Part shown: positions 4,501 through 53,445 of the stretch, in pieces
Layout: every line of letters starts with the position of its first letter
How positions within the stretch are numbered: position 1 is the first letter of the stretch
Source of the DNA: an archaeon
Lineage (GTDB): Archaea > Thermoproteota > Nitrososphaeria > Nitrososphaerales > Gagatemarchaeaceae
Reading direction: 5' to 3'
Assembly: GCA_021819105.1 (NCBI GenBank)
Contig: JAKASK010000004.1
Location: 1 to 53,812, forward strand
Length of the DNA: 53,812 bases
Position numbers and translations under genes: made by a program
Notes under the pieces: model-generated
Seen by the model: the letters and a program-made list of their open reading frames with translations, nothing else
What the model was told of the DNA's origin: nothing
The model's database searches: none

Positions 4501-5520
4501 GTGGTGTCTAAGAAGGACGTACTTTCGAATCCGGTGGCGACCATAGAGGTCGGCAAGAAAAGCATCTCGGGTTTATTGGACGAGATGTCCCAGACGGGGT
4601 TCCAGGGGAAGAAGCTGGGAGAAGTGGCCAAGATCTGGGCAGAGATGGCCAGGCAGAAAGACCTGACGGTGTTCCTGGGGCTCACGGGGTCCCTCAGCAC
4701 CACGGGGCAGTGGAAGATAATCCGTTGGCTGGTGGAAAACAGGTACGTGGACGTAGTCGTGAGCACGGGAGCCAACATCTCAGAGGACATACTCGAGGCG
4801 CTGGGGTACCACTACTATCAGGGGACCTGGCTGGCCGACGACGAAGCGCTCCTGAAGATGAAGGTGGACAGGTTCTACGACGTGTACGCCGACGAGATGC
4901 AGTACAGAAAGCTGGAGAGGACCATCTACAACTTCGCCAACACCCTCGACCCGAAGGGGATATACTCGACGCGCGAGTTCCTCTATCAGTTCGGCGGGTT
5001 CCTGAACAAGAAGGGGATCGACAGCATCGTGGCGGCGGCCCACAGGGCGAAGGTTCCCATCTACTCCCCGGGGCTCATCGACAGCGGCTACGGTGTGGCG
5101 CTCAGCCTCCTCAGGCGGGAGAAGGGGAAGATGATCAGGCTCGACCAGACCAAGGACATGGAGGAGCTGGCCCAGATCGCGGAGAAGACCAAGAGGACCG
5201 GCGTGGTCTACCTCGGAGGCGGGGTCCCGAAGGACACCATCCAGCTCTCTACCATAATAAAATCGCTGTCAAGGGGCGGAGAGGAAGAGACCCCTCACGA
5301 GTACGCCATCCAGGTGACGGCCGACAGCCCCCAGTGGGGGGGCCTTTCCGGGTGCACCCTCGAAGAGGCGATAAGCTGGGGGAAGATAAAGTCCGACGCG
5401 AAGAAAGCCACCCTGTACGCCGACATCACGCTCGCGCTCCCCATAGTGGCCCACGCGCTCAACGAGACGACCAAGGGGAGGAGCTACCCGCCGGACCTGT
5501 CCTGGGTGTTCAAGAACTAG
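4501..5520 (+). CDS. dys: Deoxyhypusine synthase (or close DHS-like paralogue)
   Basis: A 339-aa homologue of deoxyhypusine synthase, which transfers the aminobutyl group of spermidine to a lysine of translation factor aIF5A using NAD. The SWGKI motif places the covalent-intermediate lysine at K295, and YADITLALP follows as in the family. The NAD-binding segment reads VVVSTGANISEDI rather than the classic TTAGGxEED, so it belongs to a divergent archaeal branch; another polyamine-transferase activity cannot be excluded. It starts with GTG at 4501 (a second GTG follows at 4504) and ends in an 11-nt convergent overlap with purB. A deoxyhypusine hydroxylase-like half protein lies at 41292-41801. 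Confidence 0.85.
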   Translation: MVSKKDVLSNPVATIEVGKKSISGLLDEMSQTGFQGKKLGEVAKIWAEMARQKDLTVFLGLTGSLSTTGQWKIIRWLVENRYVDVVVSTGANISEDILEALGYHYYQGTWLADDEALLKMKVDRFYDVYADEMQYRKLERTIYNFANTLDPKGIYSTREFLYQFGGFLNKKGIDSIVAAAHRAKVPIYSPGLIDSGYGVALSLLRREKGKMIRLDQTKDMEELAQIAEKTKRTGVVYLGGGVPKDTIQLSTIIKSLSRGGEEETPHEYAIQVTADSPQWGGLSGCTLEEAISWGKIKSDAKKATLYADITLALPIVAHALNETTKGRSYPPDLSWVFKN

Positions 5521-29433: not shown

Positions 29434-32400
29434 CTAGCCGACGGCGTTCGTCATTTCAAGCGACATGAGGCGGTTGAACTCGACGGCGTATGTCATCGGG
29501 AGCTCTTTGGCGAAAGGCTCCATGAACCCGTTGACCACCATGCTGAGCGCGTCCCCTTCAGAGATTCCTCTGGACATCAGATAGAAAAGCTGCTCCTCCC
29601 CCACCTTCCCCACGCTCGCTTCGTGGGTGACCGTTGCGTCGTCCTCCTGTATCTCCATGTACGGATAGGTGGCCGTCGTACTCTGCTCGTCCACCAGCAG
29701 GGCGTCGCAGTTGTGTGAGATGGCGTTCGAGATTAGATAGGTGTGATCCGTGGTCTCCAGGTTATGTACTGCTCCCGTGTAGTCTATTTTCTCGATGTCC
29801 CTGATCGGCACGTAGAAGAACTGGTCGTCGGCCCTGGCCTGGATTCTTGCGTCGGTGCTGCATCTCACGTCGTATTTGTCATGTGTTTTTACTCTTCGTC
29901 CCTGGATTTCGTCCGCTCTTGAGGCCCTCGTTATCCTGAAGAAGAGACCTTTGCGAGCCCCAATAAGCTGCGTCTGCATCGCCAAGAGCTTGGAAGTGGT
30001 CACGATGTGGATTACGTTTCGTCTGCCCGCGCTGTTCTTCGTCAGTGTTCCATCACCTCGGATATACCCATCCAAGAACGAGTCGACAATTCGAGAATCC
30101 TTGTTCAGCAGTATGAAGTCGGGAATGCGCTTGTTCGGTGCCCCCTCTCCACACCAAGAGGCGAAGGCCCTTCCGAGAACCCTCGCGAAAACAACCAGTT
30201 CGACGCCGTTTTCATTCTTTAGTTTGTACTTCTTTACCTTGTATCCGATGTTCATGAAGAACGAAGAGACTTTGGCGATTAGTTCCGTTTCCTTCGATCC
30301 CAGTGCGAACTTGAGCTTGTCTTGTGAGTAGTACCCTTCGGCGGTATACATTCCGAGTGCCCAGGCTGAATCGGAGTCAAGTACGAAGACTGAAGCGTGG
30401 CCCTTCCTTTGCATGATTCGAAGCCCCTTCTTGTTCTTCGAGAAGGGTGCAATGTCCAAGGACTTGGTTTCGAGACTGCCGGTAAGCCTTGGGACGAGCA
30501 GATAGTCGCCATCCTCTCGGGAATGTTTCGCCAGGAGTTGTGAAGCCGGGCGCCACTGCGGTCTGTCCACCGAGATTTTTTGTGCATGCGCGTGTCTACC
30601 GTTTCTGACTACGCAGGGGTAGGCTGCCCGCGATCGAGACACCAGAAACGGATGTTCGGGTGTGACCTCGATGGGTATCATCCCGAGGGCGCTGATTCTA
30701 ACCATTTCGCCTTCGTACCTGTTAAGATACGTTCGTGTGACAGTATTTTCTCCGTTCATACCGATCGCGTGATTTCCGATGACGTAGTCTGCGATAGGCC
30801 GATTGTCTCCAAGAATAAGGGCATCAGGCTTCACGCAACGGACCGTCGACTTCACGTTCTTCGCGCCCTTCGCAATGTGCAGGAGCCCCCTGTACGCAGT
30901 GTGACCTCCGCCCTTGGAGACGGAACGCGAAATGATCTTCGAAGTAGTGTCTCTCGCGAGGTGGATCGCCTTCCCACCTGTGTCCTGGACCTGCCCCGGG
31001 CCCGCGTAGGCGACCGAGATGATGTCGGCCTTCGCCCTCGGCCCGAGAAGGTACACCGACGGGTACTTCCGCGTCATTCTTGACCCCCCGTTAAAGTCGA
31101 CCCATGACACCGTGGCCTCCTCGTAGGCGTGGGCCCTCTTGGTGACGAGGTTGAGCACGTCCCGCGACCAGTTCTGGAGCGTCGTGTACTTGACCAGGGC
31201 GCCCTTCTTGGCGATTATCTCCACAACCGCGGAGTGGAGTGACTGTGCGGAGTACACGGGTGCACTGCAGTTGTGTACCGCGAACCCTTTGACCAGGTAA
31301 CTTTCGTCTCCGCTGACGCCGAGATTGTAGACCCGGCCGTGGAAGGCTTCCGAAAGTATCTTCTTGATGGGAACAAAGTACCGATTGCCTTTCCTTCTGA
31401 CGGCGCTCCACTTCTTGTTCTCCGTATATTCGACAACGTACTGGTCCTTCCGGACGATCCTCCTTCCCAGAATCTTGTCTTCTGACCCCTTCCGAAGGTT
31501 GATGTTCGAGAACATTCCGGCTCTAGCCAGAATCTCCTGCAATTGAAAGGCCAGAATCTTGCTCGCGGTGGACGCGCGAATCATCAACGAGGTATCCGCC
31601 TTCTTTGCGTACCTGTTGCCGTCCCCTCTGAGGTAGTACCTCAGGAAGAGCATCTGGCGACTTGGTGGTAGCAGCATCATCCTCTCGGAAAGAGTCTTGG
31701 TCGGAGCGCCGATTCCGCAGCTTGACCGGCAGAGCTCAATCAGCATCTTCGAGTAAGACGCGACGACATAGTACCTTCCTCGAGACTTGTAGAGGCTGGC
31801 ATTTTCGCCGACAGAGTGGATCAGATCGAGCAGCTCCTGGGCCAGTTCTCCCTCCGACGGAGAAGCACCAAAGCTGAACTGTAGGTAGTCCCGCTTCAAC
31901 TTCCTGTTGTACGAAACCGTTCCTTCTGCCAAGTAGACGCCTAGAATCTTCAGGAGAGCGTCGGAAAGGAGCGCGTCGTCCTTCTCATCTGTAGGTGCGA
32001 CGTAAAGGATGAAGTCGCCGACCTCCAGCTTCCCTGCCTCTATGAACTGAGGTTCGACAGCCGACAGTTTGGCGGCGGACGCCTCTGGCAGCCATCCGTT
32101 CCTGCCCTTTCTGAAGGACACCGTACTTCTCTTTATCGCCAAGACCGGATGCTCCGGAGTAAGCCTGAAAGCGCTGGCGCTCGATTGTGGAACGATAGTC
32201 AGCATCTGACCGCTGTGCGGGTGGATGTACCTTTCGGTAACAGCCCGCATTCTGCCCTCGTGGGTCACTACCAATTCACGAGTTCCTATGCTCTCAATCG
32301 CATCGAGTGAATGCCCTTTGCTGACAAGCTCGTCTGCCGGGAGGCACCCTTCGTTGTAGGAAACCTCACTGTACGGCTCGGCGACGATGAGAGTCCTCTC

Positions 32401-33048
32401 GAATTGGCCCATGTTTCTTTCGTTGATCCTGAAGTATGCCTGGAGGATCATGGGCACCTTGACCCCTTCGGGGACGTATACGAACGAGCCGGCGCTCCAC
32501 ACGGCCGTCTGGAGGGCTGCGATGTAGTTGTCCTGGTACGGCACCACGGTGCCGAAATACTTCCTCATGATGTCAGGGTACTCCTTGAGGGCTGTCACCG
32601 TGTCCGTGAAGACGACCCCCTGCTTCTCGAGCTCGCCCTTGATGCTGTGATAGACTGCCTCCGACTCATACACCGCCCCCACGCCAGCGAGGAACTTCTT
32701 CTCCGCCTCGGTTATGCCCAGCTTGTCATATGTGCGCTTGATGTACTCCGGGAGCTGCTCCCACGAATCGGCGGCCTTCGCTGTCGGTCTCGCGTAATAG
32801 TAGAAGCTCTGGAAGTCGATGTCGGCCAGGTCAGGGGCCCAGGACGGAGGTTTCCTGTCGAGGAAGTGCTTCAGCGCCTTCATCCGGACCTGCTCCATCC
32901 AGGCAGGCTCGTCGTGCAGCCTCACTATCTCCTGGACGACACGCTCGCTGAGGCCTTTTGCGCCCTGGACGGCGTAGGACTCGATGGGGTCGCTGAATCC
33001 GTACTTCTCCTTGTAGTCGTCGGTTATGATGTCAGTCTTGGAAGCCAA
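29434..33048 (-). CDS. sufB: SufB precursor containing two inteins
   Basis: A 1204-residue precursor. Exteins are residues 1-234, 594-737 and 1114-1204. Joining them gives a 469-aa SufB, a normal length, with NEG-CSAP and TVR-CDALL at the junctions. SufB is the scaffold on which SUF clusters form. The two junction cysteines match by motif the functional cysteines C254 and C405 of E. coli SufB. The start is TTG at 33048. A dyad operator overlaps the promoter 19-32 nt upstream. Without both splicing events the protein could not fold or carry intact active cysteines, so activity depends on splicing. Confidence 0.96.
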   Translation of the reverse strand: MASKTDIITDDYKEKYGFSDPIESYAVQGAKGLSERVVQEIVRLHDEPAWMEQVRMKALKHFLDRKPPSWAPDLADIDFQSFYYYARPTAKAADSWEQLPEYIKRTYDKLGITEAEKKFLAGVGAVYESEAVYHSIKGELEKQGVVFTDTVTALKEYPDIMRKYFGTVVPYQDNYIAALQTAVWSAGSFVYVPEGVKVPMILQAYFRINERNMGQFERTLIVAEPYSEVSYNEGCLPADELVSKGHSLDAIESIGTRELVVTHEGRMRAVTERYIHPHSGQMLTIVPQSSASAFRLTPEHPVLAIKRSTVSFRKGRNGWLPEASAAKLSAVEPQFIEAGKLEVGDFILYVAPTDEKDDALLSDALLKILGVYLAEGTVSYNRKLKRDYLQFSFGASPSEGELAQELLDLIHSVGENASLYKSRGRYYVVASYSKMLIELCRSSCGIGAPTKTLSERMMLLPPSRQMLFLRYYLRGDGNRYAKKADTSLMIRASTASKILAFQLQEILARAGMFSNINLRKGSEDKILGRRIVRKDQYVVEYTENKKWSAVRRKGNRYFVPIKKILSEAFHGRVYNLGVSGDESYLVKGFAVHNCSAPVYSAQSLHSAVVEIIAKKGALVKYTTLQNWSRDVLNLVTKRAHAYEEATVSWVDFNGGSRMTRKYPSVYLLGPRAKADIISVAYAGPGQVQDTGGKAIHLARDTTSKIISRSVSKGGGHTAYRGLLHIAKGAKNVKSTVRCVKPDALILGDNRPIADYVIGNHAIGMNGENTVTRTYLNRYEGEMVRISALGMIPIEVTPEHPFLVSRSRAAYPCVVRNGRHAHAQKISVDRPQWRPASQLLAKHSREDGDYLLVPRLTGSLETKSLDIAPFSKNKKGLRIMQRKGHASVFVLDSDSAWALGMYTAEGYYSQDKLKFALGSKETELIAKVSSFFMNIGYKVKKYKLKNENGVELVVFARVLGRAFASWCGEGAPNKRIPDFILLNKDSRIVDSFLDGYIRGDGTLTKNSAGRRNVIHIVTTSKLLAMQTQLIGARKGLFFRITRASRADEIQGRRVKTHDKYDVRCSTDARIQARADDQFFYVPIRDIEKIDYTGAVHNLETTDHTYLISNAISHNCDALLVDEQSTTATYPYMEIQEDDATVTHEASVGKVGEEQLFYLMSRGISEGDALSMVVNGFMEPFAKELPMTYAVEFNRLMSLEMTNAVG
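29710..30837 (-). mobile_element. Intein 2 of SufB (LAGLIDADG type, 376 aa)
   Basis: Residues 738-1113 of the precursor. It begins at Cys738, has the block B TPEH motif (796-799), and ends ISHN before Cys1114. The central homing endonuclease keeps both dodecapeptide motifs: ALGMYTAEGYY (897-907, acidic Glu) and FLDGYIRGDGT (991-1001, acidic Asp). Block F reads GAVHNLETTDHTYLIS. All splicing residues are present, so it should be active. The DNA is visibly less GC-rich than the exteins, in keeping with horizontal acquisition. Confidence 0.95.
31270..32346 (-). mobile_element. Intein 1 of SufB (LAGLIDADG type, 359 aa)
   Basis: Residues 235-593 of the precursor. It begins at Cys235 (CLPADELVSKG), has TPEH at 297-300 as block B, and ends FAVHN before Cys594. 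Endonuclease motifs are ILGVYLAEGTV (368-378) and FLRYYLRGDGN (468-478), both with acidic residues kept. Block F reads GRVYNLGVSGDESYLVKG. Overall architecture resembles intein 2 but the sequences differ widely, so they are probably independent insertions rather than a recent duplication. Confidence 0.95.
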
Positions 33049-38899: not shown

Positions 38900-39346
38900 A
38901 TGACGACAACTGTGACAGAAGCCGAAGTCGCCCGGGACGTGGTCACCTTCAAGGGTCACGCCATGGTCAGGTCGATGCACCCCACGACGATGGAGCTGAC
39001 CACCGAAGAGGACCTCACGGAGAACGGGGACTGCATCGTCGGAGTGGGGGCATCCAAGGGCTGTGCGGGCCTTGACGTGAGGGTGAGAGAGAAGCTCAGG
39101 AGGTCAGGGTCGATGGTGACCATCAGGCTGGTCGCAGAGGACGAGTCGTTCGAGCTCAGGGCGCGCGGGGACCCGCGGCTCCTGCTATCCCATCCTCACG
39201 ACATGGTCATCAGGAGGAGCGACTTCGTGAGCGACAGGACGCTCGCACTGGGGGCCGACGCGGCGGCCAGGGACATCCCCAGGAGGCTGGTGGCGCTGCT
39301 CAGGGACCCCAAGACGACGGGCAGGATGGAGATAGAGGTGCGCTAG
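38900..39346 (+). CDS. DUF371 family protein
   Basis: A 148-aa archaeal protein of uncharacterised family DUF371. The conserved block FKGHAMVRSMHPTTMELTTE followed by LTENGDCIVGVGASKGC matches the family, and HPHDMVIRRSDF follows near the C-terminus. No catalytic role is established. It sits one base before the start of the mevalonate-pathway homologue, which hints at cotranscription. Confidence 0.85.
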   Translation: MTTTVTEAEVARDVVTFKGHAMVRSMHPTTMELTTEEDLTENGDCIVGVGASKGCAGLDVRVREKLRRSGSMVTIRLVAEDESFELRARGDPRLLLSHPHDMVIRRSDFVSDRTLALGADAAARDIPRRLVALLRDPKTTGRMEIEVR

Positions 39347-40292: not shown

Positions 40293-40504
40293 GCCCTGGC
40301 CTGAGGCGGGTCAGGGACTATCTGGAGGAGCTTGAGAAGTCGAAGGAGGACAGAGAACCCCAGGTCAGGGAAGGGCTGGAGACCTATGTGGACCTGTGGA
40401 GGAAGGCGGTCGCCAGGGGAATGGTGGACCTGGAAGACCCGGTCGACGACGCACTGGGAAAGCTGGAGAGGGCTGGCGGCCTCTACAAGGCGGCCGAGGG
40501 CTAG
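40289..40504 (+). CDS. Small helical protein, 71 aa, unknown function
   Basis: The GTG at 40289 overlaps the stop of the upstream decarboxylase homologue as GTGA, the same coupling seen elsewhere in this genome. The product is rich in charged helix formers (RDYLEELEKSKEDREPQVRE, then YVDLWRKAVARGMVDLEDPV). It ends with a 4-nt convergent overlap with the SDR gene. No family was recognised. It is likely the last gene of a unit beginning at 38629. Confidence 0.65.
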   Translation: MSPGLRRVRDYLEELEKSKEDREPQVREGLETYVDLWRKAVARGMVDLEDPVDDALGKLERAGGLYKAAEG

Positions 40505-41250
40505 CGGATTGCTTCTCCGCCGTCCAGCGCCACGACCTGGCCCGTGATGAAGGAGGATTCCTTCCCGGCTAGGAAGAGCGCCAGGTCCGCAGCCTCGGAA
40601 GGCTTACCGAACCTCCTCAGAGGGATCGCAGCACGGTAGGACTCCGTCTGTTCCTTGCTCAGCCAGTCGACCCAGGTGGTGGCGATCGACCCGAAGGCCA
40701 TGCAGTTTACCCTGACCTTCGGAGCGAGCATCTTTGCCAGCATCCTGGTCATGGATATGACCGCGCCCTTGGCCGACGCGTAGACAAGGCCCTCGGTGTC
40801 GCCGACGAGGGCCGGGATGGAGGCAACGTTGACTATGGAGGACCCGCCCTTCATCAGCGCGGCGGCCCCCTGGCAGCAGAGAAAGGTCCCGAAGGCGTCG
40901 ACGGCGAAGACCCTCTGCCACATCTCGAGCCTGGTCTTCTCCAGACGCAGGTTCCAGAGGCTCCTGTCTGCCAACCCCGCTGCGTTGACGAGGATGTCAA
41001 GCCCCCCGAGCTCCGTCTTGATCTCCTGGAACATCCTCCCCACGCTGGCCGGGTCAGAGACGTCTGCGTGGACCACCAGCACCTTCCCTCCGGCCCGCTC
41101 CACTGACCTGGCGACCGGCTCAGGGTGCGACTTCCCCGACCGGTGGTTCAGCACGACGGTCGCGCCTTCCTTCGAAAACAGTTTGGCTATCTCGGCCCCT
41201 ATGCCCTGAGAGGAGCCTGTCACTAGGGCGCGCCTGCCCTGGAGCCTCAA
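40501..41250 (-). CDS. Short-chain dehydrogenase/reductase (FabG-like)
   Basis: A 249-aa classic SDR. The cofactor motif is TGSSQGIGAEIAKLF (TGxxxGxG), NAAG lies in LDILVNAAGLADRS, and the active-site pair is YASAK with an upstream Ser in NVASIPA. Arg in LNHRSG suggests NADPH preference. The C-terminal SSFITGQVVALDGGEA is typical of 3-oxoacyl-reductase-like SDRs. The substrate is unknown. Confidence 0.88.
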   Translation of the reverse strand: MRLQGRRALVTGSSQGIGAEIAKLFSKEGATVVLNHRSGKSHPEPVARSVERAGGKVLVVHADVSDPASVGRMFQEIKTELGGLDILVNAAGLADRSLWNLRLEKTRLEMWQRVFAVDAFGTFLCCQGAAALMKGGSSIVNVASIPALVGDTEGLVYASAKGAVISMTRMLAKMLAPKVRVNCMAFGSIATTWVDWLSKEQTESYRAAIPLRRFGKPSEAADLALFLAGKESSFITGQVVALDGGEAIR

Positions 41251-41291: not shown

Positions 41292-41801
41292 CTACGGTCG
41301 GGGAGCCCTGTCTCTGGCGGTCGAGCCCGCAGAATACTGCTTCAGGAACCTGATGTTGAAAAGCGACGCCTTCGCCGAGTTCCTCACCATCTCGTCCGTG
41401 TCATCAAGTGCTTTGGAAAGGACCTCCTCCGAGTCGGCGCTGCCGACGGAGCCAAGGGCGGCGGCTGACTCGTGCCTGACGATGGGGTCCTTGTCGTTGA
41501 TGACCGCCTCGGCAAGCGCCCTGTTCCCTTCGGAGAGTCCGATCTGCCCCAACGAGAACGCAGCTTCGTGCCTGACGAGGGGGTCGGGGTCGTGGAGAAG
41601 GACGTCGGCCAGGGCTGGGACGGACCTCTCTCCTCCCACCTCTGCTAGTATGCAGACTGCGTGCACTCTGAGCACCAGGCTGGGCTCGGTCTTCAGGACT
41701 GTGATGAAGTAGGACTCGTCCTTCTTTTCCCATGCCTCTTCCATCCCTCGCATCACCCGCATCGCCTTCGCCTCGTCATCGACCACGGTGCTGGTGTACA
41801 T
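41292..41801 (-). CDS. Half-size deoxyhypusine hydroxylase-like HEAT-repeat protein
   Basis: A 169-aa HEAT/PBS-lyase-like repeat protein. Two successive repeats carry His-Glu pairs: PLVRHEAAFSLGQIG (H78/E79) and PIVRHESAAALGSVG (H110/E111), 32 residues apart. Eukaryotic deoxyhypusine hydroxylase has the same alternating HE-LGQ / RHE-ALG pattern, about 33 residues apart, but twice, binding a di-iron centre between two halves. This protein equals one half and could rebuild the site as a homodimer. It would hydroxylate the product of the synthase at 4501-5520. Other HEAT-repeat roles remain possible. The start is supported by a TATA box 29 nt upstream. Confidence 0.72.
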   Translation of the reverse strand: MYTSTVVDDEAKAMRVMRGMEEAWEKKDESYFITVLKTEPSLVLRVHAVCILAEVGGERSVPALADVLLHDPDPLVRHEAAFSLGQIGLSEGNRALAEAVINDKDPIVRHESAAALGSVGSADSEEVLSKALDDTDEMVRNSAKASLFNIRFLKQYSAGSTARDRAPRP

Positions 41802-46760: not shown

Positions 46761-46992
46761 TTCTTCCCACAAGACATGCCTTCGGCTTGGGCCGGATGAG
46801 TGCGATGACTTCGGCCGTCTCGGGAGAAATCGTTTATGGCGATTTCATCCTTTTGGATGCGGATTCGCAGGTCTGGCATATTACCAGCGCCGACCATTTG
46901 CCATGACTGCAGGGCAGGTCGCTGAAAGTGTTGACACGGTGTGTTCCATATTGTCCCTGCGCGGGACAGACGGTTTGCCCCCGCTTCACTGT

Positions 46993-47000
46993 TGATATAC
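46993..47000 (+). promoter_or_regulatory. TATA box of dph5
   Basis: TGATATAC is centred about 28 nt before the ATG at 47025. It supports this start over the frame open from 46941. Confidence 0.6.
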
Positions 47001-47024
47001 CACGATTTACCTCCTAGAATAGGC

Positions 47025-48065
47025 ATGGGCCGTCTCAGCTTCGTGGGCCTGGGCCTCGGGGCGAAAGGCATCACCCTGGAAGGCATCGAGGAAATCAAGG
47101 ATGCCGACGTCGTTTACTTCGAGTACTACACCACCCCCCACGAGCCTTCCCTGCTCAATGAGCTCGCCAAGGCCGTCGGGAAAGACCCGGTGGTGGTCGA
47201 CAGGGACTTCGTGGAAAGCGGGAGCCGGATCCTGTCCGAAGCCGCCGTCAGGAAGGTCGCCCTGGCGGTACCCGGGGACCCCATGATAGCCACCACCCAC
47301 GGCGAGCTTCGGGCGAGGGCGATCAGGCAGGGGGTAGAGACCAGGGTGGTACACTCCGCGACCATAGCCTCAGCCGCCGCCAGCGCGTCCGGGCTGCACT
47401 CGTACAAGTTCTCAAGGACGGTGACCGTGACTCGGGAGTCGGTTGGAAAGCTTACCCAGGCGTACCACATCTTGCACCAGAACCTGCTGGAGGGGGCGCA
47501 CACCCTGCTTCTCCTGGAGTACGACGTCCAGAGCGGGGAAGGGGTCTCCCCCGCCGACGCCATGGCGGGGCTGCTCCTGGCCGAGGGGAACTTCAAGCGT
47601 GGGGTGGTCGACGAGAAGACCTTCGCCCTTGTCCTCTGCAGGGTGGGGAGGGAGGACTCGAAACTGGAGGCCGGGGGGTTCGACGGGCTGTCCAAGGCAG
47701 ACTATGGGGAGCCGCCCTGCTGCGTGGTGGTGCCGGGCAAACTGCACTTCTCAGAGGTCGAGGCGGTTTCCGCGATCTTCGGGGTCCCCGAATCCTCCGT
47801 TAGGAGCAACTCGGACAAGGTCCTGAGGACCGCCCAGACTCTGGTGCCAAAGTACGTGGCAAAGACACGCCGGGCCCTCGAGTCGGCGAAGTCAAAGGTC
47901 GGACAGCAGTATGAACACGTGCTCGAGAACGCAGAGCTCTATGCGAAGGACGCCGAGAGCTTCCTGGCGAACGGAGAAGACGAGATGGCTATGCTCAGCA
48001 TAGGGTACGCCGAAGGGCTTTTGGACTCGCTGGCTTTCGCAGGGGTCGCCAAGATCGACTGGTAA
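47025..48065 (+). CDS. dph5: Diphthine synthase fused to a DUF357 domain
   Basis: A 346-aa protein. Residues 1 to about 255 are diphthine synthase, which methylates the diphthamide precursor on elongation factor 2: MGRLSFVGLGLGAKGITLEG, VPGDPMIATTHGEL and SGLHSYKFSRTVT are SAM-binding blocks. Residues about 265-346 form a helical DUF357-type domain (ENAELYAKDAESFLANGEDE, then SIGYAEGLLDSLAF), normally a separate archaeal protein. The ATG at 47025 is chosen from the domain start and the TATA box. The next gene follows after 3 nt. Confidence 0.92.
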   Translation: MGRLSFVGLGLGAKGITLEGIEEIKDADVVYFEYYTTPHEPSLLNELAKAVGKDPVVVDRDFVESGSRILSEAAVRKVALAVPGDPMIATTHGELRARAIRQGVETRVVHSATIASAAASASGLHSYKFSRTVTVTRESVGKLTQAYHILHQNLLEGAHTLLLLEYDVQSGEGVSPADAMAGLLLAEGNFKRGVVDEKTFALVLCRVGREDSKLEAGGFDGLSKADYGEPPCCVVVPGKLHFSEVEAVSAIFGVPESSVRSNSDKVLRTAQTLVPKYVAKTRRALESAKSKVGQQYEHVLENAELYAKDAESFLANGEDEMAMLSIGYAEGLLDSLAFAGVAKIDW

Positions 48066-51465: not shown

Positions 51466-52432
51466 GGATCGAGCGCAGCAGGCCGACAGAGATGTTGCCG
51501 CCGCTTATCACGAGGGCGACCTTCTGCCCCGGCTCCCCCTTCAGCGGCCCCTTCATCGCTGCCAGCGGGGAAGCGCCGGCAGGCTCGGCGAGCACCCTCG
51601 CCAGGGTGAGGAGCTCGTAGATGGCGTCCTCCAGCTGGTCGTCGCTCACCAGCCCGATCTTGGAGACGAACCTCCGCGTGGCTTCGAAGGTCAGCTCTCC
51701 CGGGATCGCCGCCTGCATGCCGTCGGCTATGGTCGGCTTCGGCTCGACCCTCAGCCTCTTGCCCTCCTTGACCGACTCGTACATTGAAGGGATAGACAGC
51801 GTCTCGGCGCCGTAGACGAGGGCCCGGGGGTTCGACCCCTTCAGCGCGATGGCGATGCCTGAGATGAGCCCACCTCCGCCTATGGCCACGGTCACCGCTT
51901 CGAGGCCAGGCAGCTGCCGGCTGATTTCGAGGCCGCAGGTCCCCTGGCCGGCGATGACGTCCCTGTCGTCGAAGGCGTGGACGAAGGTCAGGCGGCGCTT
52001 CCCGGCGGTCGCCAGCGCGTTTTCGTAGGCCTGGTCGTACCCCGCCCCGCCGCGGATGACCTCGGCTCCCTGCTCCTCGATAGCCATTAGCTTCTGGGGA
52101 TTGACCGCCTCCGGGACGCACACGGCCGCCTTCACGCCGAACAGCTTCGCGGCGTAGGCGATCGCGAGCCCGTGGTTCCCTGAGGAAGCGGTGACCACCC
52201 CCTTGGCGAGGTCGGAGTCTGGGAGCGACAGGAGCTTGTTCATGGCGCCCCTCAGCTTGAAGACGTGGATCGGGAGCGACGTCTCGAGCTTCAGGTACAC
52301 CTGCCTGCCCAGGAGCTCGGAGATTCCTTTGGAGTACTCGAGGGGGGTCGGGGCGATGTACCTTCGGATCCTTTCTTCGGCGGCTTCGATGTCGTGATAG
52401 CCAGGTAGCGACCCTCGGCTCAGCCGAACCAC
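51437..52432 (-). CDS. ilvA: Threonine/serine dehydratase-like PLP enzyme
   Basis: A 331-aa fold-type II PLP enzyme. The PLP lysine is in VFKLRGAMNKL, the substrate loop is TASSGNHGLAIAYAA, and the phosphate-binding Gly loop is IGGGGLISGIA. No C-terminal ACT domain is present, so it would be the catabolic or unregulated form. Serine racemase activity is also possible. The GTG at 52432 is taken as the start; the frame opens further upstream inside the FEN-1 gene, which it overlaps by 13 nt. Confidence 0.87.
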   Translation of the reverse strand: MVRLSRGSLPGYHDIEAAEERIRRYIAPTPLEYSKGISELLGRQVYLKLETSLPIHVFKLRGAMNKLLSLPDSDLAKGVVTASSGNHGLAIAYAAKLFGVKAAVCVPEAVNPQKLMAIEEQGAEVIRGGAGYDQAYENALATAGKRRLTFVHAFDDRDVIAGQGTCGLEISRQLPGLEAVTVAIGGGGLISGIAIALKGSNPRALVYGAETLSIPSMYESVKEGKRLRVEPKPTIADGMQAAIPGELTFEATRRFVSKIGLVSDDQLEDAIYELLTLARVLAEPAGASPLAAMKGPLKGEPGQKVALVISGGNISVGLLRSILMRKEKGSP

Positions 52433-53445
52433 TTCTCCAATGTCTCGGACTGCGGCACCTTCGCCGCCTGCACTCTGGCGATCGCGGCCTCCACCCGCTC
52501 CCTTGAGAAAGAGTGCTCCCCGACGAGAAAGGACAGCATCCTCTGCCTGTCCAGAGGCTTCCATTCGGGCCTGACCCCCTTTGTCGAGGGCGCATCGAGG
52601 TAGAGCTTCCTGATCTCTTGGTAGCTCACCCCGGCCAGGGACTCCGACAGCTCCTTGACCTCTTCGAGGCGGCCATACTTCTTCAGATATTTCAGGGCGG
52701 TCGCGGGACCGACCCCTTCGAACCCGTCCGGGTTGAAGTCGGTGCCCAGGAGGATCGCGTAGTCGACCAGCTGCTCCCTGGTCAGCCCGGTTTCCGCCAG
52801 CACCGAAGCCAGGGTGATCCTTTCAGGGACGACGTTCACCACGATCCCCTTGCTGGGGAGCCGACGCTTCCCCGATATGGTCACATTCCTGACTAGCACG
52901 GGCGCGCCGAACACCAGGGAGTCGTGGTCCTGGGAGGCGACGGCGTTCACCGTCCCCTCTATCGCCATCACCGAGGCCTGGGCCTCCCCTTCGGAGGGAG
53001 CGTCGACCCAGGGGATGCCCATGGCGTCGAGGAGCTCCTTGGCGTCGCCCACCATGTCCCGCCTGAGGACGGTCGACGCTTCGGCGAACTTCCTTGCCTG
53101 GGTCATGTCGCCGGTCTGGAGGGCGCGCAGGTACTGGTCCTTCGCTTCTCTCCTCTGCTCTGACCTTCGCCTGATCTCCTCCATCTTCAGCTCCGGGGGC
53201 CTGCCGTCGAAGACGTAGACGAGCTTCATCCCGAGCTCGAGCAGGTTGACGTTCCGGTAGAAGAGCCCGGATATGTGGGAGGTGACCCGGCCCTGCGAGT
53301 CTTTGAGGTGGCCCCCGTCCATCCCCCTGATGATGGCCAGGAACTGGTAGAGGGTGTTGTAGCCGTCGACAGCCAGCTTCCAGCCCGCTATGTCTTCGAG
53401 CTGTATCTTCTCCCTGGGGATCGAGTCGCCGAAGTCTACGCCCAT
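52420..53445 (-). CDS. fen: Flap endonuclease 1
   Basis: A 341-aa structure-specific nuclease that removes RNA primers and flaps at Okazaki junctions. The N domain starts MGVDFGDSIPREKIQ, with metal-binding Asp in AVDGYNTLYQF and VYVFDGRPPELK. The I domain has APSEGEAQA and ASQDHDSLVFG, then LGTDFNPDGFEGVGPATALK. The C-terminus QSETLEKWFG is a PCNA-interacting PIP box (QxxLxxWF). A TATA box lies 30 nt upstream. Confidence 0.97.
   Translation of the reverse strand: MGVDFGDSIPREKIQLEDIAGWKLAVDGYNTLYQFLAIIRGMDGGHLKDSQGRVTSHISGLFYRNVNLLELGMKLVYVFDGRPPELKMEEIRRRSEQRREAKDQYLRALQTGDMTQARKFAEASTVLRRDMVGDAKELLDAMGIPWVDAPSEGEAQASVMAIEGTVNAVASQDHDSLVFGAPVLVRNVTISGKRRLPSKGIVVNVVPERITLASVLAETGLTREQLVDYAILLGTDFNPDGFEGVGPATALKYLKKYGRLEEVKELSESLAGVSYQEIRKLYLDAPSTKGVRPEWKPLDRQRMLSFLVGEHSFSRERVEAAIARVQAAKVPQSETLEKWFG

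Follow-up and report, generated by a model that had tools for sequence, protein, structure and literature searches.

The archaeal DNA analyzed here encodes a half-size HEAT-repeat protein, hereafter family A or A, that is almost certainly a homologue of one arm of deoxyhypusine hydroxylase (DOHH) and carries a complete half-site. Our preferred reading, to which we give a probability of roughly 0.57, is that A is a HEAT oxygenase working like DOHH and hydroxylating the deoxyhypusine form of aIF5A. With greater confidence, we consider it likely that A is a dimeric di-iron oxygenase. Archaea have aIF5A and deoxyhypusine synthase (DHS), and some have hypusine, which makes A a specific, testable candidate gene for the missing hydroxylation in a large group that has cultured members and includes ammonia-oxidiser-like relatives. 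A preliminary description of this DNA had stated that archaea are usually credited with DHS and an unclear hydroxylase, and papers from 2012 to 2021 indeed record no archaeal DOHH orthologue (PMC3306375, PMC5178350, PMC6105217, PMC8153317).

The gene lies at positions 41292-41801 on the minus strand of the window, the whole 53.8-kb stretch analyzed, and starts with ATG. Its 169-aa HEAT product contains the two His-Glu motifs noted in the preliminary description, RHEAAFSLGQ and RHESAAALGS, spaced 32 residues apart. The first pair, H78-E79 (codons at 41565-41570, minus strand), is equivalent to H56-E57 and H207-E208 of human DOHH, and the second, H110-E111 (41469-41474, minus strand), to H89-E90 and H240-E241. 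Between them, G85-Q86 of the LGQ motif (41544-41549, minus strand) corresponds to G63-Q64 and G214-Q215. In a six-frame search of the whole window the two-site motif occurs once, and this single occurrence, together with its invariance in 42 of 42 aligned orthologs, places the pairing far from chance.

Domain models see only generic HEAT repeats in this protein (Pfam PF13646, HEAT_2, 9.1e-27; HEAT_PBS, 1.1e-11), and none of the NCBIfam models reaches its cut-off on it: NblB scores 42 bits (cut-off 300), CpcE 20 bits (cut-off 330) and CpcF 17 bits (cut-off 220). The window's genome (G000, 0.91 Mb, 65% complete) encodes two HEAT_2 proteins, A and an aminopeptidase-like protein, of M1 type by inspection, with C-terminal HEAT repeats. 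At the C-terminus of A, F-x-K-x-TGG is conserved in several families, in most sequences outside family f1, whereas proteins of the window's family end in RAPRP; such tails could reach into a partner or carry a modification.

Family A is found in 35 of the 37 genomes of the window's family, at 63-100% identity, and at 20 further loci of our contig collection titled archaeon, Thaumarchaeota, Nitrososphaerales or Nitrososphaerota. Across 397 Thermoproteota genomes at least 85% complete, plus the window's own, we counted 95 carriers; the gene is absent from most Thermoproteota genomes. Carriers lie mostly within the window's order, which they leave for other classes as well (f18, f31, f45 and f70), and families f8 and f10 appear to be ammonia oxidisers. 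The fetched orthologs with intact sequence have their His-Glu pairs 32 residues apart, and R77, H78, E79, G85, Q86, R109, H110 and E111, among others, are invariant in all 42 that were aligned. A nearly complete genome from another family of the same class (G420) carries two differing copies, L031 and L095, which share 63% and 62% identity with the protein of the window and each have the full half-site. Several apparent oddities were set aside: a split intein between the His-Glu motifs in G406 (ORFs of 284 and 277 aa) dissolves into ORFs crossing N stretches at assembly breaks, and the long frames of L027 and L077 (468 and 411 aa) are read as upstream open sequence instead of fusions.

The invariant residues of A are those of the DOHH active site. 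A review assigns the di-iron centre of DOHH to H56, H89, E90, H207, H240 and E241 and deoxyhypusine binding to E57, E90, E208, E241 and a glycine pair (PMC9117371). The substrate glycine is printed there as G65 (PMC9117371), and our alignment places it at G63. The iron-ligand equivalents H78, H110 and E111 align with all DOHH halves and are invariant in 42 of 42 sequences, as are the substrate-residue equivalents E79, E111 and G85, the LGQ glycine. All six residues of a DOHH half are thus matched, and one A chain amounts to one complete half-site. More broadly, 16 of the 23 columns invariant in A hold the identical residue in all four arms of human and yeast DOHH, namely H78, E79, G85, Q86, H110 and E111 along with R45, L52, L96, V108, R109, A115, L116, G117, L128 and V139. 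The human query sequence is identical to 4D4Z over 289 residues. The arm alignment, the four-arm profile and its masking scores, the 33-residue spacing and the tree depend in part on the yeast Lia1 sequence.

Searches of the PDB point the same way. Human DOHH is the best natural match to A both with the single sequence (3.4e-20) and with a profile (1e-40); the next natural profile matches are proteasome Rpn2 (about 1e-10) and YibA (1.7e-9), and the remaining strong ones are design products, namely alphaReps and the homotrimer 6veh. We also compared A with DOHH and with generic PBS-lyase HEAT proteins by profile, as the preliminary description had suggested: a profile built from the four DOHH arms gives A 68-100 bits, versus at most 34 bits per domain for HEAT proteins without His-Glu pairs. 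When HE and Q are masked, A still scores 57-78 bits over the whole sequence, showing that the likeness to DOHH exceeds the motifs. Part of the similarity is nevertheless generic HEAT, since designed alphaReps outscore DOHH through repeated consensus matches; on the DOHH-arm profile a long alphaRep sums to 90 bits over three domains, with a best domain of 34. Among 22 VRxx...AL repeats taken from HEAT proteins without the pairing, HE occurs in none, and neither of two bacterial HEAT matches has HE pairs. Plasmid matches to A and human DOHH, in Scytonema and Bacillus velezensis, proved to be generic HEAT repeats without HE and were discarded.

An AlphaFold2 model of A, built from the 42-sequence alignment, is helical throughout (pLDDT 91.2, pTM 0.87) and has the fold of a DOHH arm. 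The His-Glu pairs sit at equivalent positions of consecutive repeats, close to where helices 74-87 and 106-119 begin. In a Foldseek search of the PDB, the best natural protein is the DOHH half (4D4Z), which superposes on the model at 1.6 A over 127-130 columns with 31% identity and TMq 0.69-0.70; alphaReps lead the list by E-value yet superpose mostly at about 7 A.

We further investigated whether the partners of such an enzyme accompany it. The DHS gene that the preliminary description had placed at 4501-5520 is present there on the plus strand (PF01916, E = 1.9e-94; PRK00805 above cut-off), about 36 kb from A and sharing no operon with it. aIF5A, including its lysine loop, is encoded in every complete A carrier checked. 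The eIF-5A models PF01287 and TIGR00037 find no match in the window's genome, which we attribute to its 65% completeness because TIGR00037 matches its complete relatives.

Around A, the neighborhoods of eleven loci from different families contain no block conserved across families, and never DHS or aIF5A beside the gene. Directly downstream on the same strand lies a short-chain dehydrogenase-like ORF (40501-41250, minus strand); the identical order, with a 7-bp gap, recurs in a relative (G005) and is not conserved in other families, and this neighbor is probably functionally unrelated. DUF371-like, diphthine-synthase-like and FEN1-like ORFs, named by inspection, occur no more than some kilobases from A, in the window (38900-39346, 46941-48065 and 52420-53445) as well as in the distant class f70 (L144: 707-1480, 6650-7069 and 7823-8857), forming a loose conserved neighborhood.

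Two further features caught our attention. In five genomes an intron of 22-35 nt interrupts the aIF5A gene right inside the codon for the hypusine lysine (GGT A^AG CAT): at about 1475-1506 of L169 (G037), in L197, L198 and L199 (family f2) and in L196 (G038, family f3). Each forms a textbook bulge-helix-bulge with a CUGG/CCAG helix and two 3-nt bulges, and once spliced by the usual rule 5 of 5 regain SKPGKHGSAK; in twelve further A carriers aIF5A is uninterrupted, and our literature search for aIF5A paired with an intron found none. Separately, the window encodes a 1204-aa SufB-like protein (29434-33048, minus strand) whose translation apparently holds two inteins, CLPADELV...VHN|C and CVKPDALI...SHN|C.

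Family A goes with aerobes, though it is absent from some of them. The haem-copper oxidase gene COX1 occurs in 94 of 95 A carriers versus 79 of 302 non-carriers, counts that are uncorrected for shared ancestry, as is the Fisher p-value computed from them, which does not amount to a test. Among non-carriers within the window's order, COX1 is absent from seven and present in a similar number, and families f31 and f45 have A only patchily despite COX1. When human DOHH was searched against the 397 Thermoproteota genomes, the matches below 1e-8 were families A and B alone, B being a second half-size family described below, each as a single arm; full-length DOHH was found in none of these genomes, nor in the viral contigs searched for it.

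Hypusine itself extends beyond A. Sulfolobus acidocaldarius contains hypusine (PMC5178350), and a profile search of this species returned no HEAT_2 protein; in S. solfataricus aIF5A is hypusinated and DOHH was not found (PMC6105217). Hypusine in Crenarchaea therefore needs another enzyme, and since these archaea make it by another route, A cannot be taken for the general archaeal DOHH. Hypusine formation without oxygen has also been mentioned for some species (PMC7432094). The half-size DOHH put forward in the preliminary description is partly supported, by its DOHH-arm homology, its complete half-site and its DHS-bearing hosts.

How would half a hydroxylase work? DOHH is a symmetrical dyad whose two four-repeat arms jointly build the binuclear iron site (PMC8153317), and it is from this architecture that the idea of a homodimer derives: A is probably a homodimeric, half-size variant of DOHH. 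Each A chain would contribute one H-E/H-E half-site, and a pair of chains would face each other in the manner of the N- and C-terminal DOHH halves, holding two irons between them. O2 would then be activated at the di-iron centre, as a peroxo-di-iron(III) species, for hydroxylation of the deoxyhypusine side chain placed on aIF5A by DHS. Dimerisation, iron, O2 chemistry and the aIF5A substrate are what we infer for A. If the proposal is true, A is a natural minimal di-iron oxygenase made from two identical HEAT arms.

The chemistry could instead serve a different target. In this possible but rather unlikely reading, A is a homo- or heterodimeric DOHH-type di-iron HEAT oxygenase acting on another protein or a polyamine-like molecule, and DOHH would be one specialised branch of a broader class of His-Glu HEAT oxygenases. 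Such proteins do reach beyond A, to all 26 members of family B and to three IMG/VR contigs, and both the hypusine that S. acidocaldarius has without A and the lack of a genomic link from A to DHS or aIF5A are consistent with another substrate. Against it, A invariably keeps the substrate-side residues of DOHH, both glutamates and the glycine of LGQ, A is nearer to DOHH than B is by profile, and DHS and aIF5A are present in A hosts. The viral contigs (L157, L158 and L159) encode small HEAT proteins whose two VRHE pairs are spaced by 34-38 residues and which constitute a further His-Glu HEAT group.

Family B (loci L103-L108 and L171-L190) also raises the question of assembly. It occurs in many ammonia-oxidiser-like genomes, most of which also carry A, and all 26 of its sequences space their HE pairs 32 residues apart (HE-x30-HE). 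B is a homologue of A (hhalign probability 99.6%), and of all PDB entries human DOHH matches B best, by profile (4e-22) as well as by fold (TMq 0.73, 2.4 A). A and B might accordingly form a heterodimer in ammonia-oxidiser-like archaea, a DOHH split over two genes, with A-only genomes using a homodimer or a different partner; here the chemistry would overlap with that of the homodimer and the assembly would differ. We regard this as unlikely: although such genomes do encode two half-size families and B has DOHH as its top match, at the search sensitivity used B was not seen in the window's genus, which showed A only, nor in many A-carrying genomes, its members nearly always lack the LGQ glycine and glutamine, and the A and B genes lie far apart.

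Still less probable is that A is a non-catalytic PBS-lyase-type HEAT scaffold whose His-Glu pairs are structural or hold a single structural metal, for while Pfam offers just HEAT_2 and HEAT_PBS and designed alphaRep scaffolds top the library matches, generic HEAT repeats of these and further genomes have no HE at that position, the invariant columns of A are those of the DOHH active site, beyond the hydrophobic core, and the DOHH half superposes far more closely than most alphaReps over the aligned length.

We then return to the homodimeric half-size hydroxylase and its possible bearing on the eukaryotic enzyme, since such a half, if true, would show how two-arm DOHH could arise. A maximum-likelihood tree built on 112 columns groups all four DOHH arms together (100/97), near A; in it the N and C arms diverge before the human/yeast split, and a clade of A with DOHH is not rejected (p 0.52). 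The rows of three A sequences (L039, L046 and L090) were shifted in this tree, being cut from a neighboring HE, which leaves the 42/42 residue counts unaffected. The tree fits a DOHH that may be a duplicated relative of A-like half proteins, but it has long branches, few columns, minimal eukaryotic sampling (human and yeast) and a genome set without Asgard archaea. The preliminary description had called A a possible ancestral, non-duplicated DOHH; the tree allows for a homologue from before the duplication and gives no proof of one. That A is a homodimeric archaeal DOHH making hypusine in Thaumarchaeota-type archaea, and also the undivided precursor of the duplicated and fused eukaryotic enzyme, we propose only tentatively.

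Among known systems, the PBS-lyase HEAT proteins CpcE/CpcF and NblB and the E. coli protein YibA share HEAT architecture and weak profile similarity with A and score far below DOHH; YibA reportedly lacks the active-site residues of DOHH (PMC3306375). Designed alphaReps resemble A in their consensus, thermostable HEAT-like repeats, which earn high summed scores over many repeats, but are artificial, have no His-Glu pairs and do not share the close superposition of the DOHH half. Family B is like A in its half size, in the spacing of its HE pairs and in that DOHH heads its PDB matches on profile and fold alike, and unlike it in lacking LGQ, in bearing an N-terminal ESxRWDaVWL block and in its apparent absence from the window's genus. 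Eukaryotic DOHH (yeast Lia1; PDB 4D4Z, EC 1.14.99.29) combines two arms in a single polypeptide of about 300 residues, with eight HEAT repeats and four His-Glu motifs in all; A, as one half of 169 aa, does not have this classical architecture. The His-Glu spacing is 33 in the human and yeast halves and 32 in A. The two nevertheless have in common the HEAT fold and the pattern HE-x4-LGQ ... RHE-x3-ALG, and A retains all the iron and substrate residues of a DOHH half.
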